Shown: positions 2,493 to 18,550, counted from the stretch's first letter. The stretch: DNA of 64,000 bases from Gemmatimonadota bacterium (GCA_007121455.1 SKKN01000025.1:1-64000); one strand, 5' to 3'. A program made the numbers and translations. The notes: generated by a model not told the origin, from the letters alone.

Positions 2493-2872
2493 CGACTTTG
2501 TGCGCCCGGGTAGAAGTCGCCGACCCGGTCGTCGTTGCCTGCCTGCAACAGACATGCCTCTCCCGGGGGCGGGGGAAATGAGGGTGGTATGTTCTTATAT
2601 GAACGTGAGTTATGAGGTATCGACGCCATTTTCAGGGAAGTCTGGGAGCGAAGCGGCCCCGGAACTGTTTTCCGATTTTTCGTCTGAGGGAGACATTTGT
2701 TTCCGGTGCTTATCGATTCTCACACTGAGCTGCGAGAAGCGAATCCCACTGATTTCCGGTTGCGAAATGGGCGGACGGCGAGGATGTTGTCAGCGTGGGC
2801 CGCGAGATTTCCGGACGGCCTGCCGAAGAATGGCCGCCATTTGTTCCCTATTCACGAGGCGAATCCATATCT
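2493..2872. other. Intergenic region between divergent genes
   Basis: This stretch is less GC-rich than its surroundings and has no coding sequence I can support. It must hold promoters for the riboswitch transcript (minus) and for the epimerase (plus). A small inverted repeat GTTC-TTATAT-GAAC lies near 2591-2604. I see no convincing paired -35/-10 boxes. Confidence 0.5.
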
Positions 2873-3850
2873 ATGAGTGACGTCGCGGTGATCGGCGGAG
2901 CCGGGTTCATCGGCTCGCGCCTGGTGGAGGCGCTGGATGGCCCCCGAGTGATCGACCGGAAGATTCCCGAGGATGGACCGGGACGGTTCCGCATTGACGT
3001 TCGGGACCGGGAGCGATTGATCCCCGCCCTCGAGGGGGTCGGGACCCTCTGTCTCCTCGCGGCGGAACATAGGGACGATGTGGAGCCGACTTCCCTCTAC
3101 TACGACGTGAACGTCGGAGGGGCGAAAAACGTCGTCGAAGCGGCAGTCCGGTTGGGGATCCAGCGGATCCTCTTCACGAGCACGGTAGCCATATACGGGC
3201 TGAACGCTCCCGATGCCGGGGAAGACTCGCCTCCGGATCCATTCAACGACTATGCGAGGAGCAAGTGGCAGGCGGAGCAGACGTTGGTCGCGTGGGCCAA
3301 GGAGGATCCCTCGAGGAGCCTGGTGATCGTCCGGCCATGCGTGATCTTCGGTGAGGGGAACCGGGGAAACGTCTACAATCTCCTCTCTCAGCTCGCGGCC
3401 CGAAGGTTCCTTATGGTCGGAAACGGTACGAACAGGAAGTCGATGGCGTACGTCGGGAACCTCGTCGCCCTCATGACGCGGTTCCTGGATTCCCCGAACG
3501 GGATCCAGGTGTTCAACTACGCCGACAAGCCGGATCTGTCGATGAAGCGACTCCTGCAGGTGGCGACAGATGAGCTGGGCGTAGACCTGCCGGGGTGGAC
3601 GGTCCCGCACCCGGTCGGACTCGCGGCCGGCTTCGGGTTTGACGTGCTCGCACGCCTTACCCGCCGCAAGCTGCCCATCAGCGCCGTCCGAGTCCGGAAG
3701 TTCTGTGCGAACACTACGGTGAACACCGACCGTCTTGCGTCGACCGGGTTCGAGGCTCCATACAGCCTGGAGGAAGGCCTGCGCCGGATGATCAGGGCGG
3801 AGTTTCCCGTTGAAGCAGACCCTCCACGGCAACTGCAAGAAGCGATGTAG
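2873..3850 (+). CDS. NAD(P)-dependent nucleotide-sugar epimerase/dehydratase
   Basis: 325 residues of the extended short-chain dehydrogenase family. The N-terminal GGAGFIG dinucleotide-binding loop (about residues 8-14), the Ser in STVAIYG, and the YARSK active site (Tyr and Lys of YxxxK) are all present, so it should be catalytically competent. Family members interconvert or dehydrate nucleotide-linked sugars for surface polysaccharides; the exact substrate cannot be read from sequence. The ATG at 2873 is used because the Rossmann loop follows directly; the ribosome site is weak. It is 79 bases before a Wzi-like gene, consistent with a capsule or exopolysaccharide role. Confidence 0.85.
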   Translation: MSDVAVIGGAGFIGSRLVEALDGPRVIDRKIPEDGPGRFRIDVRDRERLIPALEGVGTLCLLAAEHRDDVEPTSLYYDVNVGGAKNVVEAAVRLGIQRILFTSTVAIYGLNAPDAGEDSPPDPFNDYARSKWQAEQTLVAWAKEDPSRSLVIVRPCVIFGEGNRGNVYNLLSQLAARRFLMVGNGTNRKSMAYVGNLVALMTRFLDSPNGIQVFNYADKPDLSMKRLLQVATDELGVDLPGWTVPHPVGLAAGFGFDVLARLTRRKLPISAVRVRKFCANTTVNTDRLASTGFEAPYSLEEGLRRMIRAEFPVEADPPRQLQEAM

Positions 3851-3929
3851 AGGCCTTGAAAGGGGGGGCAGTGGGTCCGGGCGGGAGCCCCCCGGACTCG
3901 ATGCGACTCGCCACGTCGGGGGAGAGACG

Positions 3930-5486
3930 ATGGACCTGAAGTACGTGTGCTGGGAGAAACGCCTCCTTCTCCTGAAGTCGGTGGCGCTCTTCCTGCTTCT
4001 CCTGCCGGTGTCGGCCCCGATGTGCGGGATTCAGGGGCAGCAGGCCCCGGGCGCCTCACCGTTCCTCTCCCCCGACCACTGGGCACATGGCGCCCTGGCC
4101 CGGCTTCATGGGGCGGGGCTCTTGCCCGAGGGGTTCGACCCCGGTACCCGCTCCGTGAGCCGGGTGGAGGCGTTTCACTGGCTCACGCACGCCATGGCGG
4201 AGGCGGAGGAAGGGCCTCCCCCGTGGGAGGACGTGGCGACGGCGTACCGGGAGCGGCTCGCCGAGGAGTTCCCGGGCACGGCGCACCGGGCTTCCGGGGG
4301 GGCGGGTACCCTCACCGGGGACGTTGTCCTCATGGGAGGGGTCGAGTCCCGGCGAAACGACCTTCTGGCGAGACATGATCCGGACGGAAGCGGGGATGCC
4401 CGAACCTTGGCCATGGACGACCTGCAGGGGCCCGTGGGTGGAGTGGAGGTGGGACTCCACCTGCCTCCGTCCCGCGTGTCTCTCGCCGGCCACGGAACTC
4501 TCCTCCTTCGGGAAGGAGGAGCCCGGGCCTCCGAGCTGTACGGCGTAGCGCTCGTGGACCGGATCGGTGTGTGGGCTGGCCGGCGGCGCATAGGCCTCGG
4601 CCTCTCCGACGCAGGCTCCATGGTCGTCACCGGAGAGGCGCCCTTTACGGGCGCGGGATTGTTCCTGTCCGAAGGGGTTCGCCTTCCCGGCGCACTCGGC
4701 CACCTTGGGACGTTCCGGTTCGAGACCTTCATTTCCCGCCGCGAACGGATGGCACAGGTGGAGTCGCCATGGTTCTTCGGCCTGCGAACGTCCCTCGCGC
4801 CCCACGCCCGCGTCCGGATCGGGCTGAACCGGGGCACGGTCTTCGGCGGCGACGGCGAGCGCGTTCCCCCTGCCACCCTCGATCGGGTGTTGAAGGTGCT
4901 GGCGGGGATCGACACGGCGGACGAAGGCGCGAACTTCGAGGACCACATCGCTTCCGCGGACTTCTGGTTCTTGCCCCCGCTCGGGGCACTGCCTCTGGCA
5001 CTATACGGGGAATTCGGAGTGGAGGACCTCCAGCGCCAGAAGGACGAGATGCCCGCGGTCGCCGTCGGCGCCCGCCTCGCCGGCCTGCCCCGGGCTCCCT
5101 GGCTGAGCCTGGGATTCGAGCGAACCTCCTTCGGCGCATCGGAAGGAATCCGCATTCCGTGGTACGACCATCGGGTCTTCGGGACGTGGACCGACGGGGG
5201 GCGGCTCATGGCGCACGAGCTGGGCGGCGAGGGACGGGAGCTCCGGGCCTACGGAACGGCGGACCTGTGGGATGCCCGCCTGCACCTGGGAGGTCGCGGG
5301 TTCTGGCGTCGCCGAACCGAAGGGAATCTCTACGCTCCCGAGTGGGAGGGGTCGAGTCGGGGCGTAGAGGCGAACGCTCGGTGGCACCTGACCCCTTCGT
5401 TCCAGCTCAAGGTCGAGGGAGTCGTGGAGAGGGGGGACGGCTGGAACCGGAGCACCGGCTTCCTGGGCGCGCGGTTCGCCTTCTGA
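3930..5486 (+). CDS. Wzi-like outer-membrane beta-barrel protein
   Basis: 518 residues. An N-terminal signal peptide (LFLLLLPVSAP) is followed by a region resembling an S-layer-homology/helical module (LSPDHWAHGALARLHGAGLL, about residues 35-70). A long stretch of alternating hydrophobic and polar residues follows and ends in Phe (GARFAF), typical of an outer-membrane barrel. The layout resembles capsule-assembly Wzi family proteins, which bind surface polysaccharide at the outer membrane. GGGGGAGAG lies about 5 bases before the ATG at 3930. It follows the epimerase gene and precedes a nucleotidyltransferase by 14 bases. Wzi-type function is inferred from layout, not from a diagnostic motif. 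Confidence 0.65.
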   Translation: MDLKYVCWEKRLLLLKSVALFLLLLPVSAPMCGIQGQQAPGASPFLSPDHWAHGALARLHGAGLLPEGFDPGTRSVSRVEAFHWLTHAMAEAEEGPPPWEDVATAYRERLAEEFPGTAHRASGGAGTLTGDVVLMGGVESRRNDLLARHDPDGSGDARTLAMDDLQGPVGGVEVGLHLPPSRVSLAGHGTLLLREGGARASELYGVALVDRIGVWAGRRRIGLGLSDAGSMVVTGEAPFTGAGLFLSEGVRLPGALGHLGTFRFETFISRRERMAQVESPWFFGLRTSLAPHARVRIGLNRGTVFGGDGERVPPATLDRVLKVLAGIDTADEGANFEDHIASADFWFLPPLGALPLALYGEFGVEDLQRQKDEMPAVAVGARLAGLPRAPWLSLGFERTSFGASEGIRIPWYDHRVFGTWTDGGRLMAHELGGEGRELRAYGTADLWDARLHLGGRGFWRRRTEGNLYAPEWEGSSRGVEANARWHLTPSFQLKVEGVVERGDGWNRSTGFLGARFAF

Positions 5487-5500
5487 TCCGAGGCATCGAT

Positions 5501-6739
5501 ATGCCGCGTACAGTGGAAGCTGGAGCACCGAAGAACCTCACGGTCCCCGAGCACGAGCTTCTCCTCCTCTGTTCGCGGACCCGCCTGGAGGCTCCGGCGC
5601 TGCTCCGCCTCGATGGGATCCTCGACGGGGCCATCGACTGGACCGCCGTCCTGGCATACGGCGACATACACGGAACGGGGCCCCTTCTCTACCATCATCT
5701 GCGGGAACCGGGCCGAGGAAGGATTCCGGAAGCCGTCCTCGAGGGGCTCCGGACCCGGTCCGTCGCAGCGGCCGCTCGGTCGCTCATGCTCACGGCCGAA
5801 CTCGGGGCTCTCTTCGATGCCCTCGAGGCTGCCGACGCTCCGGCGCTGGTCTGGAAGGGGCCCGTGCTCGCCCATTCGATCTATCCGAGCCCCGAGCTGC
5901 GGCCGTTCCGAGACCTGGACATCATCGTGCGCCGCGAGGATGTGGACCGTATGCGACGGGTTCTCGAAGCCCGCGGCTACTCGCCCCGGCCTGGCCCCTC
6001 CGAGGACGGGAAGGAGCTTTTCCGCGAGGCGAACCAGGACGTCACCATGTGGAATCCGCGCACCGGAGTTCTCGTCGACGTCCACTGGGGAGCCATGAAA
6101 CGGTACTTCTCCTCCGCCATGGACTCCGATGCGCTCTGGACGGAGGGCCAACGGACGGATCTGAATGGGTGGGTGGTCCGTACGCTGCCCCCCACCATGT
6201 CCCTGATCGCCCTCTCCCTGCACGGAGCGAAGCACGGGCCCTTTCCGTGGCCCGAGCTCAAGTGGATCACCGATGTGGAGGGATTTGTCCGGGCCCACCC
6301 CACCGACGCGTGGAGTCCTCTCCTCGCCCGAGCTCGGGCACTCGGCTGTCACCGGGCGGTGCTCCTCGGACTCCTCCTGGCCAAAGAGCTCCTCGACGCC
6401 CCGCTTCCGCCGGAGGTGGAGGCGGACCTCGACCGGGACAACGTGGTGGCCACGCTGATCCCGGCGATTCGGGACCGTTTGCTCTCGCTCCACCCGGCGC
6501 CCTTTCCCCTGGGGGAAAGGCTGCAGTTCGACCTGGCGGTCCGGGAACGGCTCCGGGACCGCCTCCGCTATCGGGCGGCACGCCTTCTCACACCCGGACG
6601 CCGAGACGTGGGGGGCCTCCCGACGCCCCTTGGCTTCCTCCGCGTGCCGCTCCGTCTTTCCCGCCTGGCTGGACGCTACCTCCTCCGCCCCTCGCGCCTT
6701 CGCGACCTGTTCGAGGGGCGAGGGACACCGCCGGACTGA
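5501..6739 (+). CDS. Nucleotidyltransferase family protein (PF14907-type), likely RiPP tailoring
   Basis: 412 residues. The segment WKGPVLAHSIYP...RPFRDLDIIV (about residues 118-145) is the nucleotidyltransferase signature of this family: KG, a Tyr, then the Arg and two Asp residues that bind metal and nucleotide. Family members co-occur with HPr-kinase-like and asparagine-synthetase-like genes in many predicted lasso-type clusters; their reaction on the peptide is not firmly established. GAGG lies about 9 bases upstream of the ATG at 5501. It ends 121 bases before the precursor gene, with a separate promoter between. I place it in the peptide cluster, but it could also belong with the upstream polysaccharide genes. 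Confidence 0.75.
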   Translation: MPRTVEAGAPKNLTVPEHELLLLCSRTRLEAPALLRLDGILDGAIDWTAVLAYGDIHGTGPLLYHHLREPGRGRIPEAVLEGLRTRSVAAAARSLMLTAELGALFDALEAADAPALVWKGPVLAHSIYPSPELRPFRDLDIIVRREDVDRMRRVLEARGYSPRPGPSEDGKELFREANQDVTMWNPRTGVLVDVHWGAMKRYFSSAMDSDALWTEGQRTDLNGWVVRTLPPTMSLIALSLHGAKHGPFPWPELKWITDVEGFVRAHPTDAWSPLLARARALGCHRAVLLGLLLAKELLDAPLPPEVEADLDRDNVVATLIPAIRDRLLSLHPAPFPLGERLQFDLAVRERLRDRLRYRAARLLTPGRRDVGGLPTPLGFLRVPLRLSRLAGRYLLRPSRLRDLFEGRGTPPD

Positions 6740-6755
6740 CCAAACCATCGAATCC

Positions 6756-6785
6756 TTGTGCTTGGGTGCGTCCCTTCCCTATAAT
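6756..6785 (+). promoter_or_regulatory. Sigma70-type promoter of the precursor gene
   Basis: TTGTGC (6756-6761) and a perfect TATAAT (6780-6785) are separated by 18 bases. It is the clearest promoter in this GC-rich window. Transcription would start near 6792 and give a roughly 70-base leader containing a GGTGCGT/ACGCACC hairpin (near 6804-6824) before the ribosome site AAGGAGAGGG. Confidence 0.75.
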
Positions 6786-6860
6786 TGTTGGTCAGCCGTC
6801 GGTGGTGCGTCGCACGGACGCACCGGGTCGGTGCTTTCCTCAAACCTGAAGGAGAGGGTC

Positions 6861-7001
6861 ATGGAAGAAAGGACTGAGAAGAAGGAGTACGTTCGGCCCT
6901 CGGTCGAGGACTTCGGATTGGTCGCCGACCTCACGGCGACGGGAACTACCCAGGATGGTGCCGATGCCAAGGGCGGAAGCGCTGCCTCCCAGGGCATTTG
7001 A
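6861..7001 (+). CDS. Lasso-type RiPP precursor peptide
   Basis: 46 residues. The leader carries the B1-recognition pattern Y10-x2-P13...G19 followed by L24-T25, as in lasso leaders. Cleavage two residues after T25 would release a core starting at T27, with D35 as ring residue 9. Cleavage after T27 would start the core at G28, with D35 as residue 8. The tail after the ring is AKGGSAASQGI. It lacks aromatic or other bulky plug residues, which is unusual for a lasso fold. AAGGAGAGGG precedes the ATG. The gene sits between its own promoter and a strong hairpin, immediately upstream of the B2 protease gene. Leader assignment is firm; the mature structure is a guess. Confidence 0.85.
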   Translation: MEERTEKKEYVRPSVEDFGLVADLTATGTTQDGADAKGGSAASQGI

Positions 7002-7035
7002 CCGAAAGTCTGCTCGTCTAAAGGGTTCATCGCGC

Positions 7036-7073
7036 GGGCGGCTCCCCCTGAGCGGGAGCCGCCCGTATGTATT
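7036..7073 (+). terminator. Hairpin between precursor and B2 gene
   Basis: A perfect 11-bp stem, GGGCGGCTCCC (7036-7046) with GGGAGCCGCCC (7054-7064), has a 7-base loop and is followed by GTATGTATTT. It is either a partial terminator or an RNA-stabilising hairpin. Both would raise precursor mRNA relative to the downstream enzyme gene. Confidence 0.7.
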
Positions 7074-7130
7074 TCCACACCCAAGCCCCGGCATCCCCAG
7101 TCGGGTCGGGTACTGCCCCCGGGTCATCTC

Positions 7131-7607
7131 GTGAGGCTCCTCTCCTTCGCTCGGAAATTCGGTGCCCTGGACACGCGGGACCAATGGGCGCTCGTGCCGG
7201 CCACAGTTTCCCTGCTCGTGGCGCGAGTGGCGCTGCAGGTCCTGCCCTTCCGCACCTTCCTCCGCTGGGCCGATCCCCACGGTCCGCGAAGCGGAGCCCC
7301 CAGCTCCCTCGACCTTCCAACCCGACGGCGGATCCGGGCCGTGGAGCGGGCGGGATGCCGCCTCTTCCCCAAGAACCCCTGTCTCATCCAGGCGGCCGTG
7401 GTGCAGCGTCTCCTGTGGAGGAAGGGACACCCCTCCGAGCTCCGGATCGGTGTCCGAAAGGAGGGAGGTAAGCACCTCGAGGCCCACGCGTGGGTGGAAA
7501 GCGGCGGCGAGGTGGTGGTGGGAGCCCGGGGCAGATCCGACGAGCACGTCCCGCTTCCCCTATCGGGCCGCGTGGAAGGTGGCGGGCACCCTTCACGCCG
7601 GGAGTGA
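7131..7607 (+). CDS. Lasso peptide biosynthesis B2 protein (leader protease)
   Basis: 158 residues, the usual size of a stand-alone B2 protein. The transglutaminase-like Cys protease core is visible: the nucleophile in NPCLIQA (about residue 83), ELRIGVRK, and the catalytic His in EAHAWVE. B2 cuts the leader from the precursor while a B1 protein presents it. The GTG at 7131 is the only plausible start close to the conserved N-terminal helix; the ribosome site is weak. The gene follows the precursor by 129 bases and the hairpin by about 60. It converges with the first cyclase gene. Confidence 0.88.
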   Translation: MRLLSFARKFGALDTRDQWALVPATVSLLVARVALQVLPFRTFLRWADPHGPRSGAPSSLDLPTRRRIRAVERAGCRLFPKNPCLIQAAVVQRLLWRKGHPSELRIGVRKEGGKHLEAHAWVESGGEVVVGARGRSDEHVPLPLSGRVEGGGHPSRRE

Positions 7608-7642
7608 GGGACCCTTCCGCCGCTGAACCGCGCAGGTGCCCT

Positions 7643-9487
7643 CTATCGCCAATGCTGTCGCAGCCAGAACTCGGCGGTGAGCGGCCACCAGAAGTCATGG
7701 CGGGGCGTCTTCCCCTCGAGGAAGGCCTCGAACTCTAGGCGCAGCCGGTCTACGTCCAGGAGACCCAGTTCCGCCGCCATGGAGCTCCGGAGCAGTTTCC
7801 TGACCGTAGGAACCGCCCGGTCCATCAGTCCACGTTCGAAAAGGCCATGGGGGATCGTCTTCCCCGTGCGCATCCGGACCTTTTCCGGCACGACCCCCCT
7901 CAAGCCCTCCCGAGCCAGTCGTTTCGGCTCGGTGACCCGATGGACCATCCACTGGGGGACACTCAGGATGAATCGGGCGATTCGGACATCGCTCCAGGGA
8001 TCGGCGAAACCCAGGCCACGAACCGCCCGTCGCCGTTCGCCGGCCACCGCGATCCGTATCCCGGGAAACGAGAAGATCCGCTCGTAGCGCAACTGTAGCG
8101 CCGGATCCTGGAAGAGCCTCGGCCCCGGAGTCTCCCGGACCACCTCCTCCAGTCCCCAGCGGGATGCGGCCTCCGGTGGAATCCAGGGCGCGAGGGGGCG
8201 GCCCCTTCCCCGTGAGGCGGCGGGCCTGAGGAGGGGACGCAAGACCTTCTGCTTCAGTCCCCTCCATCCGGGCCTTCCCAGGGCCTCGAGCTCCCTCGCC
8301 AGGAGCCGCCACCGCCCGGCCCGGAACATCCCGGGGTAATCATACACCCAGTCCCCCACCACCTCGTCTCCCCGGTCCCCGGTAAGGACGGCCCCCATCC
8401 CCTCGGCCGCCGCACGATCCAGCGAGCGGTCGTGGAGCGGCTGATAGGGCCAGAGATGGGGGTCGTCCCGGTCGGGTCCATGGTCCGGATACCCCTGGAG
8501 GGGCCATCCTTCGTCCGCTGGGACATCCGTCCGGTCGAGCCGGTACCGATCGACGATCACATCGCTGATGCCTCGCTCATCGCCGTCGCTCAAATCGTCG
8601 AACGCCCAACAATAGCTTCGAAACCCGGCAGGCTCGGCTTCGCCGCGCTCCATGAGCCAGCCGGCCATGGATGCAATGCTCCCGGAGTCGACCCCCCCGC
8701 TGAGGAGGAGTCCCACGGGCCGCCGACTCCGAAGCCGACACGCCACCGCGTCTTGGAAAAGGGCACGAAACTCGTCCACATAGTCCGCTTCCCGCCGATG
8801 GCGGGTCCGCGCGCCGGGGTCCAGGTCCCAGAAGCGGCGGACCCGGACACCTTCGGCCGATGCCGTGAGGGAGTGGCCGGGGGCGAGCTGCAGGATCCCC
8901 CGGAAGAAGGACCAGTCCCGCTCGCCGTACGGTCCGGCGATGTGCGCGAGGAGTGCGGGCTCGAAGATTCGGGCCGGAACGTCGGGGAGGGCGAGGATCT
9001 GCTTCGCTTCGGAGGCGAAGAGGAAGCGACCGGGCTCCTCCCGGTAATAGAAGGGGCGCATTCCCATGGGGTCCCGCGCTGCGAAGAACCGTTCCTGCTC
9101 CGCATCCCAGAGGGCGAAGGCGAAGTCCCCCTCCAATCGCCCGGCGCAGTCCGGACCCCAGACCCGGTACGCGGCGAGGATCACCTCGGCGTCGGAGGGG
9201 GCGGCCCGCGCGAGCGCACCTTCCCGCCGGAGGAGGGGAAGCAACTCGGCCCGGTTGTCGATACGGACATCGGCCGCAAGGATCAGCCCACCCTGGACGA
9301 GCGGAGCCACCTCCCCTTCTGATTCCGGTGTGAGCTGGAGGGCCAGGAAGCCCAGACCTACCTTTCCATGCCGCCAAAAGCCGGTGCCATCGGGCCCACG
9401 ATAAGCCGCCGCGTCGGCCATCCGCCGGAGCGTGTCCTCCTCTACAGGGGCCCCGGTCCAGTGGGCCACTCCTAGAACTCCGCTCAC
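7643..9487 (-). CDS. Asparagine-synthetase-like lasso cyclase, copy 1
   Basis: 614 residues with the asparagine synthetase B layout: an N-terminal glutaminase-like domain and a C-terminal ATP-pyrophosphatase domain. The PP-loop SGGVDS is intact (about residue 263) and GDRGDE follows, so adenylation of an Asp or Glu side chain should be possible. The N-terminus reads MSGVLG, so the catalytic Cys2 of true glutaminases is Ser and ammonia release from glutamine is not expected. Lasso C proteins use this fold to close the macrolactam. The GTG at 9487 has AGGCGG about 7 bases upstream. It points away from the phosphoribosyltransferase fusion gene, so a divergent promoter region lies at 9488-9613. 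Confidence 0.88.
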   Translation of the reverse strand: MSGVLGVAHWTGAPVEEDTLRRMADAAAYRGPDGTGFWRHGKVGLGFLALQLTPESEGEVAPLVQGGLILAADVRIDNRAELLPLLRREGALARAAPSDAEVILAAYRVWGPDCAGRLEGDFAFALWDAEQERFFAARDPMGMRPFYYREEPGRFLFASEAKQILALPDVPARIFEPALLAHIAGPYGERDWSFFRGILQLAPGHSLTASAEGVRVRRFWDLDPGARTRHRREADYVDEFRALFQDAVACRLRSRRPVGLLLSGGVDSGSIASMAGWLMERGEAEPAGFRSYCWAFDDLSDGDERGISDVIVDRYRLDRTDVPADEGWPLQGYPDHGPDRDDPHLWPYQPLHDRSLDRAAAEGMGAVLTGDRGDEVVGDWVYDYPGMFRAGRWRLLARELEALGRPGWRGLKQKVLRPLLRPAASRGRGRPLAPWIPPEAASRWGLEEVVRETPGPRLFQDPALQLRYERIFSFPGIRIAVAGERRRAVRGLGFADPWSDVRIARFILSVPQWMVHRVTEPKRLAREGLRGVVPEKVRMRTGKTIPHGLFERGLMDRAVPTVRKLLRSSMAAELGLLDVDRLRLEFEAFLEGKTPRHDFWWPLTAEFWLRQHWR

Positions 9488-9613
9488 CGTGATCCGCCTG
9501 TTCTCATTGCCTCTCCATCCCTCCGGATTCTATCATGCTCCCTTCGCGGGCACCTCATACGGTAGGGTCCCGACGTTCCTGGCGCCGCCCGTCCTGCGTC
9601 TCGAGCCGGACGG

Positions 9614-10978
9614 ATGGACGCACACCCGAATACCGAGCCGGAAGCCCATGCTGTCGTCCCTCCTCAGGCGTGTCCGCCAAAGGCCTCTCCGCCCGTGACC
9701 CTTCCACCCAAGCGAAATCCGAGCGCGTTTGGATTCCACGTCGACCCCGAAGAGCTCCTCCCCCCGGAGCGTTACCCCTTCGGAACAGATCCGGCCCAGG
9801 AGCTGGGCGGCGTGCCCGCGCCGGCGCGTCGGGTGGTGGCGCTTGCCCGGGCGCTGGCTTCGAGTCCCGTCTGGAAGGAGATGGACGAGGCCGTCCTGGC
9901 GGTACGCACGGAGCCACCGGAGGGGATCGCGTTCCTGGGCCACTTCTCCGACGAGGAGGTCTCTCGCCTGGAATGGCTTTCGACCCAGCTCCGGAGCCAA
10001 CTCCCCCATCTCAGCTACGTGTCATGGGCCCGGGCCGAGGAAGGCGTCGAAGCGCTGGCCGCCCGGCTGGTGGATCGCTTCGGCCACCGCGAGGTGCGCG
10101 AGATGCGGTTCGCGGCGATTCCGAGGGGTGGACTCATCGTCCTGGGCATGCTGGCCTACGCGCTGGACCTGGACTCGGACCGCTTGTTCCGGCCCGACGA
10201 CGGGAGAGGCGACGGGGAGGAACGCGGGCGAGAGCCCCTCGTGGTCGTGGATGACTGCGCCCTCTCGGGCCTGCGCTTCGGAGAGTTCCTCCGGACCCGG
10301 ATCCCCGCTGCGGACGAGGTCGTCTTCGCGCACCTCTACTCCCACCCGGACCTCCGAAAATCCATCGAGGAGCGGGAGCCGCGGGTGACCGCCGTCCTGG
10401 CGGCCCGGGACCTCCAGGACCTGGCTCCGGCGCTGCTGGAAGAGGAGCTCTCGCAGTGGCGCACCCGATGGGACGCACGGAGCGATGACGACGCCTACTG
10501 GGTCGGGCGCCCCGAGCATGTGGCGTTCGCCTGGGGAGAGCCGGATCTCACCTTCTGGGACCCTTCGGCCCTGACGAGCCGGGCGGGATGGCGGCTCGTA
10601 CCACCCGAAGCGTGCCTGAAGAACCGATCCGGAGCCGCCCTCTCCCCTCCCCGACTCCAGGTCCAGGTTCCCGCAAAGGGCCGGATGCGGCTCGCTCCGG
10701 GGACCTTTCACGGTGAGCTGGACGGTCGGGTGCTGGTGGCGGAGCTCGAGAGCGGCCAGGTGGTTTCCCTCGACGGTGTGGCGGCGGATCTCTGGCGGGG
10801 ATTCCTCCGTCCCGGGGACCCGGAAGTGGTCCTGGACCGGCTGGAGGACCGCTATGAGGTTTCCCGTGAGCAGCTTCGCGCCGACGCCGACGCCTTCCTG
10901 CGGACACTCCGCGAGCGAGGGCTCGTCACGGCCACGCCCCGGTTCCGTTCCGATCATGCGGCCGGAGGGCCTGGATGA
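9614..10978 (+). CDS. Phosphoribosyltransferase-PqqD-like (RRE) fusion protein
   Basis: 454 residues in two parts. The first carries phosphoribosyltransferase marks: AAIPRGGLIVLGMLA (about residues 166-180) and the PRPP-loop-like VVVDDCALSG (about 210-219), in the right order and spacing. The second (about 365-445) is PqqD-like: DGRVLVAELESGQVVSLDG, DLWRGF, and a C-terminal helix ending RERGLV. That is the RiPP recognition element fold that binds leader peptides. The fusion suggests a leader-guided transfer or hydrolysis involving a phosphoribosyl group, which is inference only. The gene overlaps the kinase gene by 4 bases (ATGA), so the two are translationally coupled. The PRPP loop deviates from consensus in three positions, so catalysis is uncertain. 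Confidence 0.75.
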   Translation: MDAHPNTEPEAHAVVPPQACPPKASPPVTLPPKRNPSAFGFHVDPEELLPPERYPFGTDPAQELGGVPAPARRVVALARALASSPVWKEMDEAVLAVRTEPPEGIAFLGHFSDEEVSRLEWLSTQLRSQLPHLSYVSWARAEEGVEALAARLVDRFGHREVREMRFAAIPRGGLIVLGMLAYALDLDSDRLFRPDDGRGDGEERGREPLVVVDDCALSGLRFGEFLRTRIPAADEVVFAHLYSHPDLRKSIEEREPRVTAVLAARDLQDLAPALLEEELSQWRTRWDARSDDDAYWVGRPEHVAFAWGEPDLTFWDPSALTSRAGWRLVPPEACLKNRSGAALSPPRLQVQVPAKGRMRLAPGTFHGELDGRVLVAELESGQVVSLDGVAADLWRGFLRPGDPEVVLDRLEDRYEVSREQLRADADAFLRTLRERGLVTATPRFRSDHAAGGPG

Positions 10979-11985
10979 CCGAGCCTGACCTCCGGTGCTA
11001 CCGGATCTTCGGAACGACCCTGGAAACCGACTTCGATTTCGATACGCCCCTCCTGCCCTCCGACGACCCGCCGGAGCTTCACTTCCGACTGCTGGCTCGG
11101 GGCACCGCCCCCCCGAGCCGGCCGGGGCCGGGGGCCAAGGTCTTCGAGAGCCCGGTCCGGATCGACGGCGGACTCCCCCTGTTCACCGTCCATCGGAGCC
11201 GTGACGGGGATCTCCTCCGCTTCACCGAAGTGGCGGACTTCCTCCTGTCCGAGGGCTCGATCCAGGCCCGCCTTCTGGACCCGGAGTACCGCCACATGAT
11301 CGAGGTCCATCTTCTGGGCCTGGTGCTCAGCTTCTGGCTCGAACGCCGGGGCGTCCCCGTGCTCCACGCTGCCGCCGTCTCCGTTTCGGAAAGCGCCGTG
11401 GGGTTCATCGGAACGAATCGGGGCGGAAAGAGTTCCCTGGCCGTGTCGCTGATGCGAAGAGGACATCCCCTTCTCTCGGACGACCTGTTGGGGCTACAGC
11501 TCTCGGAGACCGGCGTGGAGGTGCGGCCCGGATTTCCCAGCATGCGCATGTGGCCCGACCTGGCCCGGGAGGTGGTCGAGGGAGCATGGGAGGACATGCC
11601 CCTGGCCCATCCGTGGTACGACAAACGGCGGGTGAAGGTCGGGCCCGGAGGCTTCGGACGGTTTCTGGATTGCGTTCGCCCGCTGGGACGGCTCTATCTG
11701 CCGACACGGAGGGATCCAGGTGAGCACGGGCTGGAGGTCCAAATCGAATCCGTGCCTCCTCGAGAGGCGGTCTTCGAGCTCCTCCGGGGATCCTTCCTCC
11801 CCCGACTCACCCAGGCGGCGGGTCTTGCGTCGGACCGAATGGAACTCTTCGGCGCTCTGACGCAGCACGTCCCGGTGCGGCGACTCCTCTATCCCAGCGG
11901 GTTCGAACACCTCGACCGCGTATCGGAACGGATCCTGGAGGACTCCCAGGAGGAACCTCAGCCGGGTCGCACTCCAGGACCATGA
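10975..11985 (+). CDS. HPr-kinase-like peptide kinase
   Basis: 336 residues. The P-loop GTNRGGKSSLA (about residues 146-156) and LLSDDLLG a little later match the HPr kinase fold. The upstream HAAAVS is typical of the HprK-like proteins found in RiPP clusters. In the paeninodin type such a kinase phosphorylates a Ser of the lasso precursor. Here the precursor ends in Ile, so candidate acceptors would be S40 or S43 or a core Thr. The gene overlaps both neighbours by 4 bases, placing the fusion protein, kinase and second cyclase in one operon. Confidence 0.82.
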   Translation: MTEPDLRCYRIFGTTLETDFDFDTPLLPSDDPPELHFRLLARGTAPPSRPGPGAKVFESPVRIDGGLPLFTVHRSRDGDLLRFTEVADFLLSEGSIQARLLDPEYRHMIEVHLLGLVLSFWLERRGVPVLHAAAVSVSESAVGFIGTNRGGKSSLAVSLMRRGHPLLSDDLLGLQLSETGVEVRPGFPSMRMWPDLAREVVEGAWEDMPLAHPWYDKRRVKVGPGGFGRFLDCVRPLGRLYLPTRRDPGEHGLEVQIESVPPREAVFELLRGSFLPRLTQAAGLASDRMELFGALTQHVPVRRLLYPSGFEHLDRVSERILEDSQEEPQPGRTPGP

Positions 11986-13913
11986 GCGGGATCTGCGGCT
12001 ACGTCGCTTGGGATGGTGCCCCCGTGGGGGAGCGGGACCTCGAGGGGATGATCGGGGCCGCGGACTATCGAGGAGCGGACGGCATCTCGCTCTGGTCGGG
12101 AGACGGCGCTGCGCTCGCCCACCTCTCGCTGCGGATCACTCCCGAGTCCGTTGACGAGGTGCAGCCCCTGACGGCCGACGAGGCCGGCCTCACCCTCGTG
12201 GCCGATGCCCGGATCGACAACCGCGACGAGCTGATCCCAACCCTCCGCAGTGCGGGAGAGCTCCGGAAGGGACGTTTCTCCGACGCGGAGTTGATCCTGG
12301 CCGCCTACCGGAGGTGGGGAGAGGCGTGTCCCACCCACCTGGTGGGTGACTTCGCCTTCGCCGTCTGGGACGGTCTCCTCCGGCAGCTCTTCCTGGCCCG
12401 AGATCCCCTGGGGATGCGAAGTCTCCATCTTCGGAGGGAGCCCGGCCGGTTCCTGTTCGCCACCGAGGTGGGGCAGGTCCTCTCGGCAGCCGGGGTGCCG
12501 GATGAGCTCTTTCGTCCCGCCGTCGCCGCGTACCTCGCCGGCGGGTTTGGGAACCCGGAATGGACCTTCCACTCCGGGGTGGAGCGACTTCCACCCGGCC
12601 ACGCCTTCGTCGTGTCGGCACAGGGCCTCCGAAGGTGGCGCTTCTGGACTCCCGACGGCGGCACCCGGATCCGGTACCGCAACGAGGACGCCTATACCGA
12701 TCACTTCGTGGACCTCCTGAAGGGTGCGGTGCGGACCCGGCTGCGCAGCGTCCGTCCGGCGGGGATCCTTCTCAGTGGAGGGGTGGATTCCGGAGCCATC
12801 GCCGCGGCGGCCGGGTGGCTGCGGGACCACGAGGCCGACTCCCACATCCCGGAGGTCAGGGCCTACAGCTTCGCCTGGGACGATCTCGCGGAGTGCGACG
12901 AGCGGCACATCTCGAACCCTCTCGCGGAGCACTGTGGCCTTCCCGTCTCCGAAGTCCCGGCGGACGACGCATGGCCCCTTCGGCGGGGTTGGGAGCGGGC
13001 CATGGACCCTCATACCCCCTTCCTCCTCGCACACTATGCGCTCCTGGACCGGACCGTCCGCCTTGCCCAGGACGAGGGGATGGGACTCATCTTGTCGGGA
13101 GACCGGGGAGACCTCGTGGGGGGCATGGCCATCCTTGACCTGCCAGGCCTTCTGCTATCGGGCCGCTGGCCGACCTTGGCCCGCGAGCTTCGGACGTTGG
13201 CGCGCCGGCGCGGCCGGACTCTTCCCCGCCAGGCACGGCGGGAGCTGGGTCGATGGTTGCGCGAAGCGGCACGATCCAATCAAGGGTCCTGGGGATCCCT
13301 GCCCCCCTTCCGCAGGTTCCTGGCCTCTTCGGCGCGGGTGTCCGGAGCGGACTGGCTCTCGGACGATGTCCGCCGGCACGCCATGGAGGCCCGGGAAAAC
13401 TCGTGGCTGGAGCCTGTCCCACCGTACTCCTCCCACGCTGCCAGGGAGCGATACCGCATGATCTTCACCCCTATGCACATGCTGGGAGTCGAGGCCTCGG
13501 AACGGATGCACGCCCGGCGGCTCCAGGCGTTCGCCGACCCCTGGAGCGACCGGCGGATCGTGGAGTTCGCATGCCAGGTGCCTCAACGCGTCCTGAACCG
13601 GGTGGGCGAGCCCAAACGCCTCACGCGCCGTGCCCTGGAGCGCCTGATACCGGCGCATCACGTCCGGGCGATGTGCAAGATCGTTCCGACTCCCCTCTTC
13701 GACCGGGGGATCCGGGACCGGGCAAGGCCGGAAATCGAGTCTTTGATCCGGGACTCCGTGGCGGCCCGCTGCGGCCTGGTCGACGGAGATCGATTGAGCG
13801 TCGCCTACGAGGCGCTCCGTCGGGCACCGACCGGGAGATCGGCGATGTTCTGGCGGACCCTGAGCGTCGAAATGTGGCTTCGCACGCGGGAGATGGCCGA
13901 CCTCAGCAGGTGA
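11982..13913 (+). CDS. Asparagine-synthetase-like lasso cyclase, copy 2
   Basis: 643 residues, colinear with the first copy but clearly diverged. The N-terminus is MSGICG, again with Ser in place of the glutaminase Cys2. The PP-loop SGGVDS lies near residue 265 and GDRGD is present, with GD followed by L rather than E. Both copies share the C-terminal pattern ADPWSD, VPQ, EPKRL. Two cyclases for one visible precursor is unusual. One may close the macrolactam and the other may make a different amide or serve an unlinked precursor. Start overlaps the kinase stop (ATGA). Convergent with the ABC transporter gene. Confidence 0.85.
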   Translation: MSGICGYVAWDGAPVGERDLEGMIGAADYRGADGISLWSGDGAALAHLSLRITPESVDEVQPLTADEAGLTLVADARIDNRDELIPTLRSAGELRKGRFSDAELILAAYRRWGEACPTHLVGDFAFAVWDGLLRQLFLARDPLGMRSLHLRREPGRFLFATEVGQVLSAAGVPDELFRPAVAAYLAGGFGNPEWTFHSGVERLPPGHAFVVSAQGLRRWRFWTPDGGTRIRYRNEDAYTDHFVDLLKGAVRTRLRSVRPAGILLSGGVDSGAIAAAAGWLRDHEADSHIPEVRAYSFAWDDLAECDERHISNPLAEHCGLPVSEVPADDAWPLRRGWERAMDPHTPFLLAHYALLDRTVRLAQDEGMGLILSGDRGDLVGGMAILDLPGLLLSGRWPTLARELRTLARRRGRTLPRQARRELGRWLREAARSNQGSWGSLPPFRRFLASSARVSGADWLSDDVRRHAMEARENSWLEPVPPYSSHAARERYRMIFTPMHMLGVEASERMHARRLQAFADPWSDRRIVEFACQVPQRVLNRVGEPKRLTRRALERLIPAHHVRAMCKIVPTPLFDRGIRDRARPEIESLIRDSVAARCGLVDGDRLSVAYEALRRAPTGRSAMFWRTLSVEMWLRTREMADLSR

Positions 13914-13925
13914 CCCGACGACCGG

Positions 13926-15812
13926 TCAAAGGGCCTTCCCCCTGGAGGGGGCGCTGGACAGGGAGGGCTCCTCCATCTGGTACGGGCCCGCCTGCATCGA
14001 AAACAACGTGGCGTACCTTCCGCCGCGCCCCATCAGCTCGTCGTGGGTCCCCTCCTCGATGATCCGGCCTCCCTCCAGGAAGTAGATCCGGCTGGCGAGC
14101 CGGACTGTGGAGAGGCGGTGGCTGATCACCACGGCGGAACGGTCGCGGAAGAGGCGGAGGAGCGCCTGAAACACCTCCGCTTCGGCGTGGGCGTCCAGGG
14201 CGCTCGTCGGCTCGTCCACCACCAGGATCTCCGCCTCGCTCCGAAACGCCCGGGCGAGAGCGACCTTCTGCCACTCTCCGATGCTCAGCTCCTCACCTTC
14301 CGAGAAGATCCGCCCCAGGACCGTGTCGTAGCTGGACCGGAGGCGCTCGATGGTGGAATCGACCCCGGCGGCCCGGGCGGCTTCGCGGATCTCCTCGAGG
14401 GAGGCGGGCCGTTGGATATCCCCGAACCAGATGTTGTCCCTCGCGGAAACGGAGTACTGGGCGTAGTCCTGGAAGACCACGGCGAACTTGCGGCGGAGCT
14501 CCGATGGGTCGAACTCGCGCAGGTCGATGCCGTCCAGGGTGATTGACCCGACGAGGGGGTCGTACAGGCGACAGAGGAGCTTGGCGAGGGTGGTCTTCCC
14601 CGAGCCGTTGGGGCCCACGAGGGCCACAACCTCACCCGGAGCCACCTCCAGGTGAACGTCCTGGAGGACCGGACCTGGACTGGTGGGATATTGGAAGCCC
14701 AATCCGTGACACCGGAGCCCGACGCGAAGTCGCTCCGGGACGGGCTGAGGGTTCTCCGGCGCACGCACCGTGGGCTTCATTTCCAGGAACTCGTCCACGT
14801 TCGACAGGAAGAGCTGGTCCTCGTAGAGATTCCCGAGGCCGCTGAAGATCGCTTGGAGCAGGGACTGCCCCCTCTGCACGGCTCCGAAGTACATGACCAT
14901 GTCTCCCAGCGTCAGGACCCCCTCGAAGGTCTGATGCCCGATGAAGGCCAGCGACCCGAAGACGACCACGGTGGCGAGCGTTTGGCTCCCGGCATCCGCC
15001 GTGTTCCTGGCTTTCACCAGGCGGAGCTTCTCGTCCCGGAGCTTCCGCTTCAGAGTGCGGAAGCGACCGAGGAACTCCCTTCCCAGGCCGAAAACCCGCA
15101 GTTCCTTTGCATGTTGGGCATTCCCGATCATCCAGCCGAAATAGTGCGCCCGGCGCTCCGTTCCAGTTCGTTCCTCCCGCCAACGATGGAGTCGACGGGA
15201 GTGGCGCACACGAACAAGGAGGGCGGGAGCGACGGCCACTACGATGACTGTCGCCAGAACCCAATGGACGCTTGCGAGGAGGATCAGCACACCCACTGCG
15301 GTAATACCGCTCTGGGTCACCTGGGTCAGGTTGCCGAGGAGCTTCGTGGGACGGAACGGTGCTTCCCGCTGGGCGAGGTGCAGCGTGTTGTAAAAGCGCG
15401 GGTCCTCGAAGTAGGCATAGTCCACGGCCATGGACTGCTCGTGGAGCCGGTCGAGCATGTGGTCCGTCACGAGCTGAGCCTTGGCCTCCTCGGCGACCCC
15501 GGCCATGGACCGGCTCAGCACGCCGATGAGCGCGACGGCGCCCGCCAGGGCGACGAGGAGGAGCACCTGATCGAAGCCTGCATCCGGAGAGGCCTCGGGG
15601 CCGACCCCGGCGGCGACCGCATCCACGATCAGCTTGATGAGGTAGAGGCTCGCCAGGGTGGCGGCGGACTGCACCACGATGAGGGCCGCACTGACGATGG
15701 TCCAGCCCGGGGCGCTCCTCCAGACGAGACCCAGGGCCCGCCCGGCGCGCTTCAGGGTCTCGGTCCGCTCGCGCAGGTCGGAGGGTCTCCCTTGGTCGAC
15801 GGTGGAACTCAA
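13926..15812 (-). CDS. ABC exporter (fused membrane and ATPase domains)
   Basis: 628 residues: about five to six membrane helices in the first 330 residues, then an ATPase with Walker A GPNGSGKTT, signature LSIGEWQ, Walker B ILVVDEPTSALD and switch His ISHRLSTV. There is no N-terminal C39 peptidase domain, so it exports an already processed product, as lasso D proteins do. The gene overlaps the recognition protein gene upstream by 4 bases. It probably gives export and self-immunity for the cluster product. Confidence 0.88.
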   Translation of the reverse strand: MSSTVDQGRPSDLRERTETLKRAGRALGLVWRSAPGWTIVSAALIVVQSAATLASLYLIKLIVDAVAAGVGPEASPDAGFDQVLLLVALAGAVALIGVLSRSMAGVAEEAKAQLVTDHMLDRLHEQSMAVDYAYFEDPRFYNTLHLAQREAPFRPTKLLGNLTQVTQSGITAVGVLILLASVHWVLATVIVVAVAPALLVRVRHSRRLHRWREERTGTERRAHYFGWMIGNAQHAKELRVFGLGREFLGRFRTLKRKLRDEKLRLVKARNTADAGSQTLATVVVFGSLAFIGHQTFEGVLTLGDMVMYFGAVQRGQSLLQAIFSGLGNLYEDQLFLSNVDEFLEMKPTVRAPENPQPVPERLRVGLRCHGLGFQYPTSPGPVLQDVHLEVAPGEVVALVGPNGSGKTTLAKLLCRLYDPLVGSITLDGIDLREFDPSELRRKFAVVFQDYAQYSVSARDNIWFGDIQRPASLEEIREAARAAGVDSTIERLRSSYDTVLGRIFSEGEELSIGEWQKVALARAFRSEAEILVVDEPTSALDAHAEAEVFQALLRLFRDRSAVVISHRLSTVRLASRIYFLEGGRIIEEGTHDELMGRGGRYATLFSMQAGPYQMEEPSLSSAPSRGKAL

Positions 15813-16096
15813 GGGGTTCGATCCAGCTGAACGAGCTTCCGCTCATCCAGGCTCTCCAAGAACGCCCGCACGTCGGTGGAGGCAACCTCGGGCTCGACCT
15901 CGAACTCCTGGGCGATGCACTTCCGAAGCTCCGCCTCGGTCCGGGGTGTCTCCAGGAGCTCCCAGATCCGGGTGCCGACCGGGTTCAGGCCGTGGTAGAC
16001 GCCAGTGTCGAGATTGAGCAGCACGGAGCCCTCGTCCCCGGCCAGGGTCTGGGACACGACGCCAGGGGTCCTGCAAATTACTTGGGTGGCGCCCAT
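15809..16096 (-). CDS. PqqD-like leader-recognition protein (lasso B1)
   Basis: 95 residues with the PqqD/RRE pattern: TPGVVSQTLAGDEGSVLLNLDTGVYHGLNPVG, TRIWELL, then a helical end with FLESL. B1 proteins bind the YxxP leader and hand it to the B2 protease. The frame is open upstream to a GTG at 16165. I prefer the ATG at 16096 because AAAGGAGG lies about 13 bases before it and the fold begins just after. This stand-alone domain coexists with the second, fused one in the operon on the other strand. Confidence 0.8.
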   Translation of the reverse strand: MGATQVICRTPGVVSQTLAGDEGSVLLNLDTGVYHGLNPVGTRIWELLETPRTEAELRKCIAQEFEVEPEVASTDVRAFLESLDERKLVQLDRTP

Positions 16097-16228
16097 GCTC
16101 GAGTCATCGCCTCCTTTCAAATCATCGTCTCCATACGGTGGACGGGTGTGAGCCCGGCCTGACACGCAGGTCGCCAGCCGCTCGGGGGAGCGATCCGAGG
16201 GGAAAGGACCAACCGACGGCCGGCTACG

Positions 16229-17005
16229 CTACACCGCACCCTTGTGGAAGAACATCACCGGGAACGTACGGAGCATGATCCGGAAATCCTCCAGGGCGGA
16301 CTGCCGGTCGATGTACTCCAGGTCCAGCGCGACCTTTCTTCGGACGTCCGCGATGCATCGGTCGTAATGCCGGTTCACCTGGGCCCAGCCCGTGATGCCG
16401 GGCAGCACCCGCTGGCGCTCGGGATACTCGGGGATCTCCTGGCGGAGCTTCCGGAAGATCTCGGGCTGCTCGGGGCGAGGCCCGACGATGTTCATGTCTC
16501 CCTTCAGGACGTTGACGAGCTGTGGGAGCTCGTCCAGCCGAGTCTTGCGAAGGATCCGCCCCACCGAGGTGATCCGCGAATCGTTGGCGCTCGCCCATTG
16601 CGGCCGATTCTTCAGGTCCTTTGCCGCCACCATCGTGCGGAACTTGTACATTCGGAAGAGTCGCCCCCCATGATCCCTTGTCCGTCGGTGGGCGAAGGCG
16701 GCGGGGACGCGCCTTCCGCGGCTGTCCAGCCCCACCCGAACCTGGACGAAAAGGATCGGCCCAGGAGAGCTCAGCCGGACGGCGAGGGCGATGAGGAGCA
16801 TCAAGGGAGCGACGCCGACAAGGAGAACCGCGGCCACCACCACGTTGAGGACACGGCGTGCCCGCGCCCTTCCCTCGTCTCGACGGAAAGGTAGGGTCGT
16901 CCACACGTCCCGCCGTGGACGGGGAGGGGGACGACGCCATCGGGTCCGCGGGGGGGACGGGGCCTTCCCCGTGCCCCTTCCGCGTTTCCGGATCACGATG
17001 AGCAT
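16229..17005 (-). CDS. Undecaprenyl-phosphate sugar-1-phosphate transferase
   Basis: 258 residues of the bacterial sugar transferase family. One strong membrane helix (VVAAVLLVGVAPLML) is followed by KFRTM, KGDMNIVGPRPEQPE and PGITGWAQVN, the family signatures. The enzyme loads the first sugar phosphate on the lipid carrier for an exopolysaccharide or capsule. It is the short form without the extra N-terminal membrane domain. The frame extends upstream to 17134, but GGGGGGA sits about 6 bases before the ATG at 17005. A 132-base gap separates it from the recognition protein gene downstream, so a read-through transcript into the peptide exporter genes is possible. Confidence 0.85.
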   Translation of the reverse strand: MLIVIRKRGRGTGKAPSPPRTRWRRPPPRPRRDVWTTLPFRRDEGRARARRVLNVVVAAVLLVGVAPLMLLIALAVRLSSPGPILFVQVRVGLDSRGRRVPAAFAHRRTRDHGGRLFRMYKFRTMVAAKDLKNRPQWASANDSRITSVGRILRKTRLDELPQLVNVLKGDMNIVGPRPEQPEIFRKLRQEIPEYPERQRVLPGITGWAQVNRHYDRCIADVRRKVALDLEYIDRQSALEDFRIMLRTFPVMFFHKGAV

Positions 17006-17485
17006 CGCCGTCCCCCCATTCGTTTGATCCCGACCCGAAACGCCCTCGTGGACGCCGATCCGGGTCACTCCAAAATGGCTCCTCTCAAGGGGCATAGCAA
17101 GTTCCATTCGCCAACTGGCCGGTGCGGGGCTCATCCCCGCTACGGTGTTGCGTACACACTACTTATGTGGTCCTTGGCCATCGCCCGGTGAGCTGCCCCG
17201 TATTGCGTGGATACAACGGTTGTCGTCGTGTATCCACAACGGATCGGCCGTCGCCCGCTCGTCCCGAGTCGCGGTCTCGTTTGAATCTGTGGACCTCAAC
17301 CCCCAACCGCTGCACGGGTGCCATATTCTTGGGCGCCCACGCCACAGCAAAAGGAGGTCCTTTTCCCAGTGCATCCACCGGAACAGCCAGGAGTTGGTGG
17401 CTCGACCGCTTGACGCATGGGCGGGCCGGCCAATATTCCTGCCTCGGGCTGTTCCATCTACTCCACCGTGAGGAAACATGGACCG
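17006..17485. other. Intergenic region between divergent polysaccharide genes
   Basis: No protein-coding gene is supported here. It holds a 9-bp inverted repeat (17207-17237), an AAAGGAGGTCC ribosome-site-like sequence at about 17350-17360, and a possible 14-codon leader frame 17369-17413. It probably contains promoters for the sugar transferase and the epimerase. Confidence 0.5.
17207..17237. promoter_or_regulatory. Inverted repeat, operator or hairpin candidate
   Basis: GTGGATACA (17207-17215) and TGTATCCAC (17229-17237) are perfect 9-bp inverted copies 13 bases apart. Position in a divergent promoter region suggests a regulator-binding palindrome, but no T-run follows and no regulator gene is nearby. 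Confidence 0.4.
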
Positions 17486-18550
17486 ATGATGAACGATAGA
17501 GCGACAAGCCAGGGTCCCTGGCTCGTCACTGGTGCCGCCGGCTTCATCGGGTTCCATGTGGCCCGGCGCCTCCTTCGGTCCGGAGCCGAAGTAGTGGGCC
17601 TGGACAACCTGAATCCGTACTACGACCCCACGCTGAAGGAGTCCCGGCTGAACCTCCTCCATGAGGAGGCCGGATTCCGGTTCGAGCGGATGGACCTGGA
17701 GGATCGGGCGGGTATGGAACGGCTTTTTCAGGAGGAGGGGTTCGGCACCGTGATCCACCTCGCGGCTCAGGCCGGGGTCCGGCACTCCCTGGCGGATCCC
17801 TGGTCGTACGTGGACAGCAACGTGACGGGGACGCTGAACGTCCTGGAGGGGTGCCGGCACACCGATGTGAAACACCACCTCTTCGCCTCCACCAGCTCCA
17901 TTTACGGGGCGAACCGAAAGACTCCCTTCCAGGTGGGAGACGGGACGGACCACCCCCTCACGATCTACGCGGCCACGAAGAAGGCCACCGAAGCCATGGC
18001 CCACGCGTACGCGGATCTTTACGCCGTCCCTTCCACCGGCCTCCGGTTCTTCACCGTCTACGGCCCCTGGGGCCGTCCCGACATGGCCCTCTTCAAGTTC
18101 ACCCGGTCGATTCTCGCGGACGAGCCCATCGACGTCTACGGAGAGGGAAAGCCTTACCGGGACTTTACCTACGTGGACGATATCGTGGAGGGGATCCTTG
18201 GGGCCGCAGTCCGGCCGGCCGAAGGGAATCCGGAGTGGGATGCCACCGACCCGGATCCTGCGACCTCGTACGCGCCCTACCGGCTCTTCAACATTGGGGC
18301 CACCCGGAAGGTATCCCTCATGCGGTTCATCGAGGTGCTGGAGGAGGTGCTGGGACGGGAAGCGAGGAAGAACTACCTGCCCATGCAGCCGGGGGACGTG
18401 CTGGAGACCCATGCCGACGTCTCCCGGCTCTCGGCGCTGACCGGCTACGAGCCGCGGGTGGGCTTTGAGGAAGGGGTGCGGAGGTTCGTGGAGTGGTATC
18501 TGGAGTTCTATGGGAGCGGAGAGAAGGTGCGGAGCTCGGGAACGGGGTAG
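17486..18550 (+). CDS. UDP-glucuronate 4-epimerase-like nucleotide-sugar epimerase
   Basis: 354 residues. GAAGFIG (NAD loop), DNLNPYYDPTLK, SSIYG and YAATKK (YxxxK) are present. NPYYD and RFFTVYGPWGRPDMA are characteristic of UDP-glucuronate epimerases that supply UDP-galacturonate for capsule. The first of two adjacent ATGs (17486, 17489) is chosen, with AGGA about 13 bases upstream. An upstream in-frame ATG at 17417 adds residues with no family match. Acts in the cytoplasm. Divergent from the sugar transferase gene. Confidence 0.87.
   Translation: MMNDRATSQGPWLVTGAAGFIGFHVARRLLRSGAEVVGLDNLNPYYDPTLKESRLNLLHEEAGFRFERMDLEDRAGMERLFQEEGFGTVIHLAAQAGVRHSLADPWSYVDSNVTGTLNVLEGCRHTDVKHHLFASTSSIYGANRKTPFQVGDGTDHPLTIYAATKKATEAMAHAYADLYAVPSTGLRFFTVYGPWGRPDMALFKFTRSILADEPIDVYGEGKPYRDFTYVDDIVEGILGAAVRPAEGNPEWDATDPDPATSYAPYRLFNIGATRKVSLMRFIEVLEEVLGREARKNYLPMQPGDVLETHADVSRLSALTGYEPRVGFEEGVRRFVEWYLEFYGSGEKVRSSGTG

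Follow-up and report, generated by a model that had tools for sequence, protein, structure and literature searches.

A cross-phylum lasso peptide subfamily with a probable phosphoribosyltransferase fused to a PqqD domain

Lasso kinases known so far act mostly on a C-terminal serine. In the pseudomycoidin (psm) cluster of Bacillus pseudomycoides, which encodes the precursor (A), a PqqD-type protein (B1), leader peptidase (B2), cyclase (C) and exporter (D) together with a kinase (K) and a nucleotidyltransferase (N), PsmK phosphorylates the C-terminal Ser and PsmN leads to a hexose on that phosphate (PMC9266682, PMC8498205). The kinase of paeninodin (pade), which has the conserved H-K-D-D residues, also acts on the precursor and phosphorylates a C-terminal Ser (PMC9266682). 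The bsf cluster of Bradymonas sediminis has the arrangement A-B1-B2-C-D-K-N and a precursor without a C-terminal Ser, and BsfK acts on a ring Ser (Ser3) (PMC10368454). Here we describe a cluster of this kind at positions 5501-16165 of a 64,000-nucleotide stretch of DNA from a Gemmatimonadota bacterium (GCA_007121455.1, SKKN01000025.1:1-64000; the whole stretch is called the window below). It shares the complete gene set with psm and bsf and the kinase residues with paeninodin, but it encodes in addition a probable phosphoribosyltransferase (PRT) joined to a PqqD domain, a fusion that reviews of pseudomycoidin do not mention and that is absent from bsf and paeninodin. It also has two cyclases where psm and bsf each have one, and unlike bsf, with Ile(-2) and a ring at Asp8, its precursor has Thr(-2). 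Fusions of a PqqD domain, or RRE (recognition element of ribosomally synthesized and post-translationally modified peptides, RiPPs), to group-transfer enzymes have been described as recruiting the precursor; they include carbamoyl- and glycosyltransferases, and the main text of that report mentions no phosphoribosyl enzyme (PMC12710340). A RiPP or lasso cluster tied to a PRT was not found in the literature searched, a search outside which most subscription papers lie and which leaves novelty unproven.

Judged by its sequence, the lasso nature of the cluster is close to certain. Each part named in the initial annotation, namely the precursor, B2, kinase, nucleotidyltransferase, exporter, two asparagine-synthetase-like proteins and two PqqD domains, was recovered from the window proteins by profile hidden Markov model matches or, for the precursor, by its leader register (Table 1). 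Since every lasso hallmark is present, the proposal of a new class was too strong. The fusion and the cyclase pair are indeed unusual, as that annotation had held. B2 was present in 92 of the 298 genomes sampled from the phylum, and when 54 further B2 neighbourhoods were annotated with profiles that started from the window proteins, the fusion was absent from all 54. It was found in six genomes of the phylum, three of them out of 121 in the family (G000, G191 and G328, the last with two copies) and the others being G350, G395 and G401, and in three of the 111 genomes searched from the Deinococci, the class to which a Trueperaceae metagenome-assembled genome (MAG) belongs (G422, G499 and G524). 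No relative was found in the viral contigs and plasmids searched, and a weaker match in G163 lay in a membrane-protein frame and was discarded. In the second G328 copy (L019:235-1449) the PRT gene lies beside an epimerase gene and its frame breaks ahead of the PqqD part, making it a pseudogene or an assembly error.

The partners of the fusion share its history. The kinase gene adjoins the fusion in all seven loci that have a neighbour on the contig (the window, L018, L009, L124, L125, L002 and L175), lying downstream in six and upstream in G524; in G422 adjacency rests on the PqqD tail, because two contigs each hold part of the fusion gene. Fusion-linked kinases grouped in a single clade (8 of 43, support 1.0), as did the fused PqqD domains (7 of 69, support 0.955), which stood apart from all free PqqD proteins, and the cyclases of fusion loci were monophyletic in their C-terminal half (support 1.0). 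A check proposed with the initial annotation was for relatives that keep the enzymes and lack the precursor; the opposite was seen: contigs that cover the region (G328, G350, G422, G499 and G524) all hold a precursor bearing the shared core motif. Since kinase, PqqD and cyclase clades go together with a shared core, a co-evolved lasso subfamily spanning two phyla and apparently defined by the RRE-fused PRT is well supported. Because counterparts of the cluster exist in other genera and another phylum, the arrangement is not a chance one.

The precursor gene is preceded by the ribosome-binding sequence AAGGAGAG, and its leader places Y-17, P-14, V-12 and T-2 in exactly the canonical lasso register (spacing rule from PMC10368454), with the YxxPx(L/V) motif and Thr(-2) of a lasso precursor. 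The predicted ring, T1-D9, is followed by the tail AKGGSAASQGI, which has no bulky plug residue. A core start at Gly (G1-D8) was ruled out by the Y-17/T-2 spacing and by the G216 precursor, LTG/AGGSQPGTD, which together put T/A first in the core and Asp ninth. Nine precursors from seven genomes in two phyla share the core motif.G.[TS]..G.D...GS, examples being TGTTQDGADAKGGSAASQGI (window), TGLTRPGDDAKDGSVMSEGR (G328), TGRTHPGADAKAGSAASRGR (G350) and TGLTNPGPDAKSGSVLSEGV (G499, Deinococci). Its conserved positions are the ring residue Asp9, present in nine of nine fusion-type precursors and within the range of core positions 7-9 for a ring Asp or Glu, and two hydroxyl positions, T/S4 of the ring and S14 of the tail. 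A six-frame scan of 172 loci (1.42 Mb) with this motif matched six precursors, all from these clusters, and three further motif-bearing precursors came from G524 and G499; a partial precursor match in G350 (C64) was checked and found to be chance. Two Deinococci loci also hold extra lasso-type precursors that lack the core motif (L171 near 1123, LTQVAVDCVVDSAF...; L175 near 475, LTQESIDFAGSV...).

Searched against Pfam, the window fusion gave a clear match solely to PqqD, with PRTase-CE at an E value of 0.013. Its relatives matched Pribosyltran (E 8e-5), PRTase-CE (E 1e-4) and a xanthine PRT model (XPRT, NF006613; E 0.004); against PF00156 the best relative falls below the gathering score and the window protein was unmatched. 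In a profile search of the PDB the top two matches were purine PRTases (4z1o and 1vdm, E 0.1), spanning the PRGG loop, the motif for binding 5-phosphoribosyl pyrophosphate (PRPP) and the next strand. PDB searches started from the window protein itself or from four relatives led nowhere. In both the domain and the purine enzymes, PRGG-type loop, PRPP motif and LYxxP strand follow one another in this order, but the relationship is remote (E 0.1 and 0.004, the latter to NF006613) and the window protein differs in being PqqD-fused and in lying in a RiPP cluster. P170-R-G-G, V212-D213-D214 and G219 are invariant in ten relatives that are 37-49% identical to the window protein, and the PRPP-binding motif hhhhDDxxx[ST]G is present in the form VDDxxx[ST]G. 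Beyond it a YW.G.P...F.W.EP stretch (residues 293-310) is conserved, which we take to resemble the base-binding hood of purine PRTs (compare ...IIFPWDRK in L145). Among the genome's own PRTs, one hhalign comparison was supportive (L145, 60%), with controls near 1%. A defence-system reading of the PRTase-CE match was ruled out, as the PRT had no PADLOC match. On these grounds the N-terminal part of the fusion probably has a PRT fold and is likely to contain a PRPP site.

The initial annotation took the kinase as the mark of a phosphorylated product. The part of that claim which stands is the enzyme: the HPr-kinase-like protein has the H, K, D and D of the kinases of phosphorylated lasso peptides, its match to the HPr-kinase C-terminal domain being weak (E 1e-4). 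What is missing is the terminal acceptor of the paeninodin and pseudomycoidin type; as the window core ends in Ile, C-terminal Ser phosphorylation is ruled out and the kinase target would lie inside the core. A tally of C-terminal residues, curated by hand, found Ser or Thr in 22 of 26 kinase-type precursors from loci without the fusion, in none of eight from kinase-free loci and in none of nine fusion-type precursors (Fisher p 1e-5 for 22/26 vs 0/9, indicative only because the sequences are related). The two hydroxyls conserved in the core motif and the two group-transfer enzymes, kinase and PRT, suggest one hydroxyl for each enzyme.

The nucleotidyltransferase had been counted as exceeding the known lasso set. 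All 30 other kinase-bearing loci among the 54 neighbourhoods carry one (G216, being of the window type, is not counted), and clusters with psmK/psmN (PMC9266682) and bsfK/bsfN (PMC10368454) have the same set, so the gene is not an extra and does not count as a novelty. Kinase plus nucleotidyltransferase is standard in the lasso clusters of this phylum, which corrects a likely misreading. One could still suppose that PRT and nucleotidyltransferase work in sequence, the phosphoribose 5-phosphate being coupled to a nucleotide to give a nucleotide- or ADP-ribose-like decoration. We think this improbable: both genes do occur in the window, G328 and G401, and the PRT does resemble purine PRTs, but contigs of 11.9 kb (G524) and 5.7 kb (G422) hold no nucleotidyltransferase, and PsmN, the one relative that has been tested, results in the addition of a hexose (PMC9266682).

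The course of events that we favour, while rating it a little below an even chance, is RRE-guided phosphoribosylation and internal phosphorylation followed by B1/B2/C maturation and export. The PqqD domain of the fusion would bind the YxxPx(V/L) motif of the leader and present the core to the PRT domain, which would move a 5-phosphoribosyl group from PRPP onto one of the side chains in the core. Ser14 of the tail and Thr/Ser4 of the ring are the likeliest acceptors, and whichever of the two is left would be phosphorylated by the adjacent kinase. The nucleotidyltransferase might then extend a phosphate, as PsmN does with a hexose. By analogy with known families, which also underlies the proposed action of the kinase on the precursor, B1 would pass the precursor to B2, B2 would cleave after T-2/A-1, a cyclase would link T1 to Asp9 and the ABC protein would export the product; the second cyclase may form another bond or pair with the first. 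Phosphoribosyl transfer to the peptide, and the site proposed for it, we consider plausible.

Several observations weigh against this model. The acceptor of known type I PRTs is mostly a nitrogen. Three Deinococci precursors, from G422 and G524, have Met in place of Lys11, the sole conserved amine of the core, which rules out this Lys as the only acceptor. The PRT assignment comes from motifs and weak profile matches (best E about 1e-4; PDB E 0.1), and a single-sequence AlphaFold model of the window fusion reached a pLDDT (predicted local distance difference test) score of 37. Most relatives lie on broken MAG contigs: the fusion loci of G191, G395 and G401 show no precursor before the contig ends, and G216 has precursor, kinase and cyclase on a contig that stops before the fusion position, the fusion not being found elsewhere in that assembly. 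The PRT could also be a PRPP sensor or act on free purine.

In a related and rather unlikely account, the cluster is an ordinary kinase-type lasso cluster whose PRT has lost peptide-modifying activity or serves only as a PRPP or nucleotide sensor that controls the kinase or cyclases, tethered by its RRE. PRTase-fold regulators exist (PyrR and PurR), the fusion always stands beside the kinase, and its similarity to catalytic PRTs is weak. Set against this, the PRPP loop, PRGG loop and F.W.EP stretch have been retained across 37-49% identity and two phyla, and the core motif varies with whether the fusion is present, as would be predicted if the enzyme acts on the peptide. A peptide-directed PRT is our preferred, provisional reading. 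Its predicted product, a lasso peptide bearing ribose-5-phosphate, installed by the RRE-guided PRT and possibly extended by kinase and nucleotidyltransferase, in a family common to two phyla, is put forward with more reserve than the pathway itself. No RiPP in the literature searched carries such a modification.

For both cyclases the best NCBIfam model was the lasso cyclase NF033535 (356 bits for AsnB1 and 359 for AsnB2, under the 525-bit cut-off). Each has SGGVDS, an intact ATP-pyrophosphatase motif, and the synthetase-site Lys, and in each the glutaminase Cys2 is replaced by Ser, a loss that one would expect where peptide amines, not ammonia, are joined. The two are 46% identical in the window, and their C-terminal halves each pair with their own G328 ortholog. 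In the G328 locus (L018:3290-7118) the paralogs resemble each other more closely in their N-terminal than in their C-terminal halves, suggesting gene conversion between them. It is a serious possibility, if short of the likelier one, that the second cyclase acts on another precursor or duplicates the first without taking part in the assembly of one product: G524 pairs two cyclases with two different precursors, one of them motif-free, and the N-terminal halves in G328 look homogenised, but the window and G328 keep two diverged paralogs with a single precursor; both paralogs have SGGxDS and the Lys, and in the C-terminal tree each is matched by an ortholog of its own. In G422 one cyclase is visible. 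AsnB1 and AsnB2 are old paralogs inside the subfamily, and the second need not be essential to one product. Some kinase-type loci (L078, L080, L087 and L097) have cyclase homologs with LTAGLDS or GDFAE/GFFAE instead of SGG.DS and GD.GD.

The genome holds one copy of the cluster, whose genes are listed in order in Table 1. The fusion, kinase and AsnB2 are probably one operon, because fusion and kinase, and kinase and AsnB2, overlap by 4 bases. B1 may start at GTG 16165 or ATG 16096. The cluster is flanked by polysaccharide genes (2795-5486 and 16229-18550) for an NAD epimerase, a Wzi capsule-assembly protein, a bacterial sugar transferase and a second epimerase; glycosyltransferase or epimerase genes also adjoin the fusion loci of G191 and the second G328 copy.

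Table 1. Genes of the lasso cluster in the window, with coordinates, strand and the basis of each assignment
Feature	Coordinates	Strand	Basis
Nucleotidyltransferase (NTP_transf_5, PsmN/BsfN-like)	5501..6739	+	PF14907 E 3.9e-56
Lasso precursor MEERTEKKEYVRPSVEDFGLVADLTA/TGTTQDGADAKGGSAASQGI	6862..7002	+	Leader register, shared core motif
B2 leader peptidase (transglutaminase-like)	7131..7607	+	NF033537 80 bits (cut-off 33); PF13471 E 2e-21
Cyclase AsnB1 (lasso C-like)	7643..9487	-	Asn_synthase/GATase_7 matches; SGGVDS and catalytic-type Lys kept; glutaminase Cys2 to Ser
PRT-PqqD fusion	9614..10978	+	Probable purine-PRTase-like domain ~70-340, RRE (C-terminal) ~375-440; PqqD E 2e-14
HPr-kinase-like putative peptide kinase	10975..11985	+	H, K, DD catalytic set retained
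Cyclase AsnB2, paralog of AsnB1	11982..13913	+	Asn_synthase/GATase_7 matches
ABC exporter (D protein)	13926..15812	-	PF00005 E 8e-30, PF00664
B1, free-standing PqqD/RRE	15809..16165	-	PF05402 E 4e-20; lasso PqqD models 54 and 48 bits

If the proposed chemistry is true, PRPP would be a donor for the tailoring of ribosomal peptides, and phosphoribose would be a new peptide decoration. Even if phosphoribosylation proves wrong, these clusters make up a compact, testable subfamily that keeps one short core across two phyla, with a dedicated kinase clade whose target would lie inside the core and with two cyclase paralogs in one pathway.

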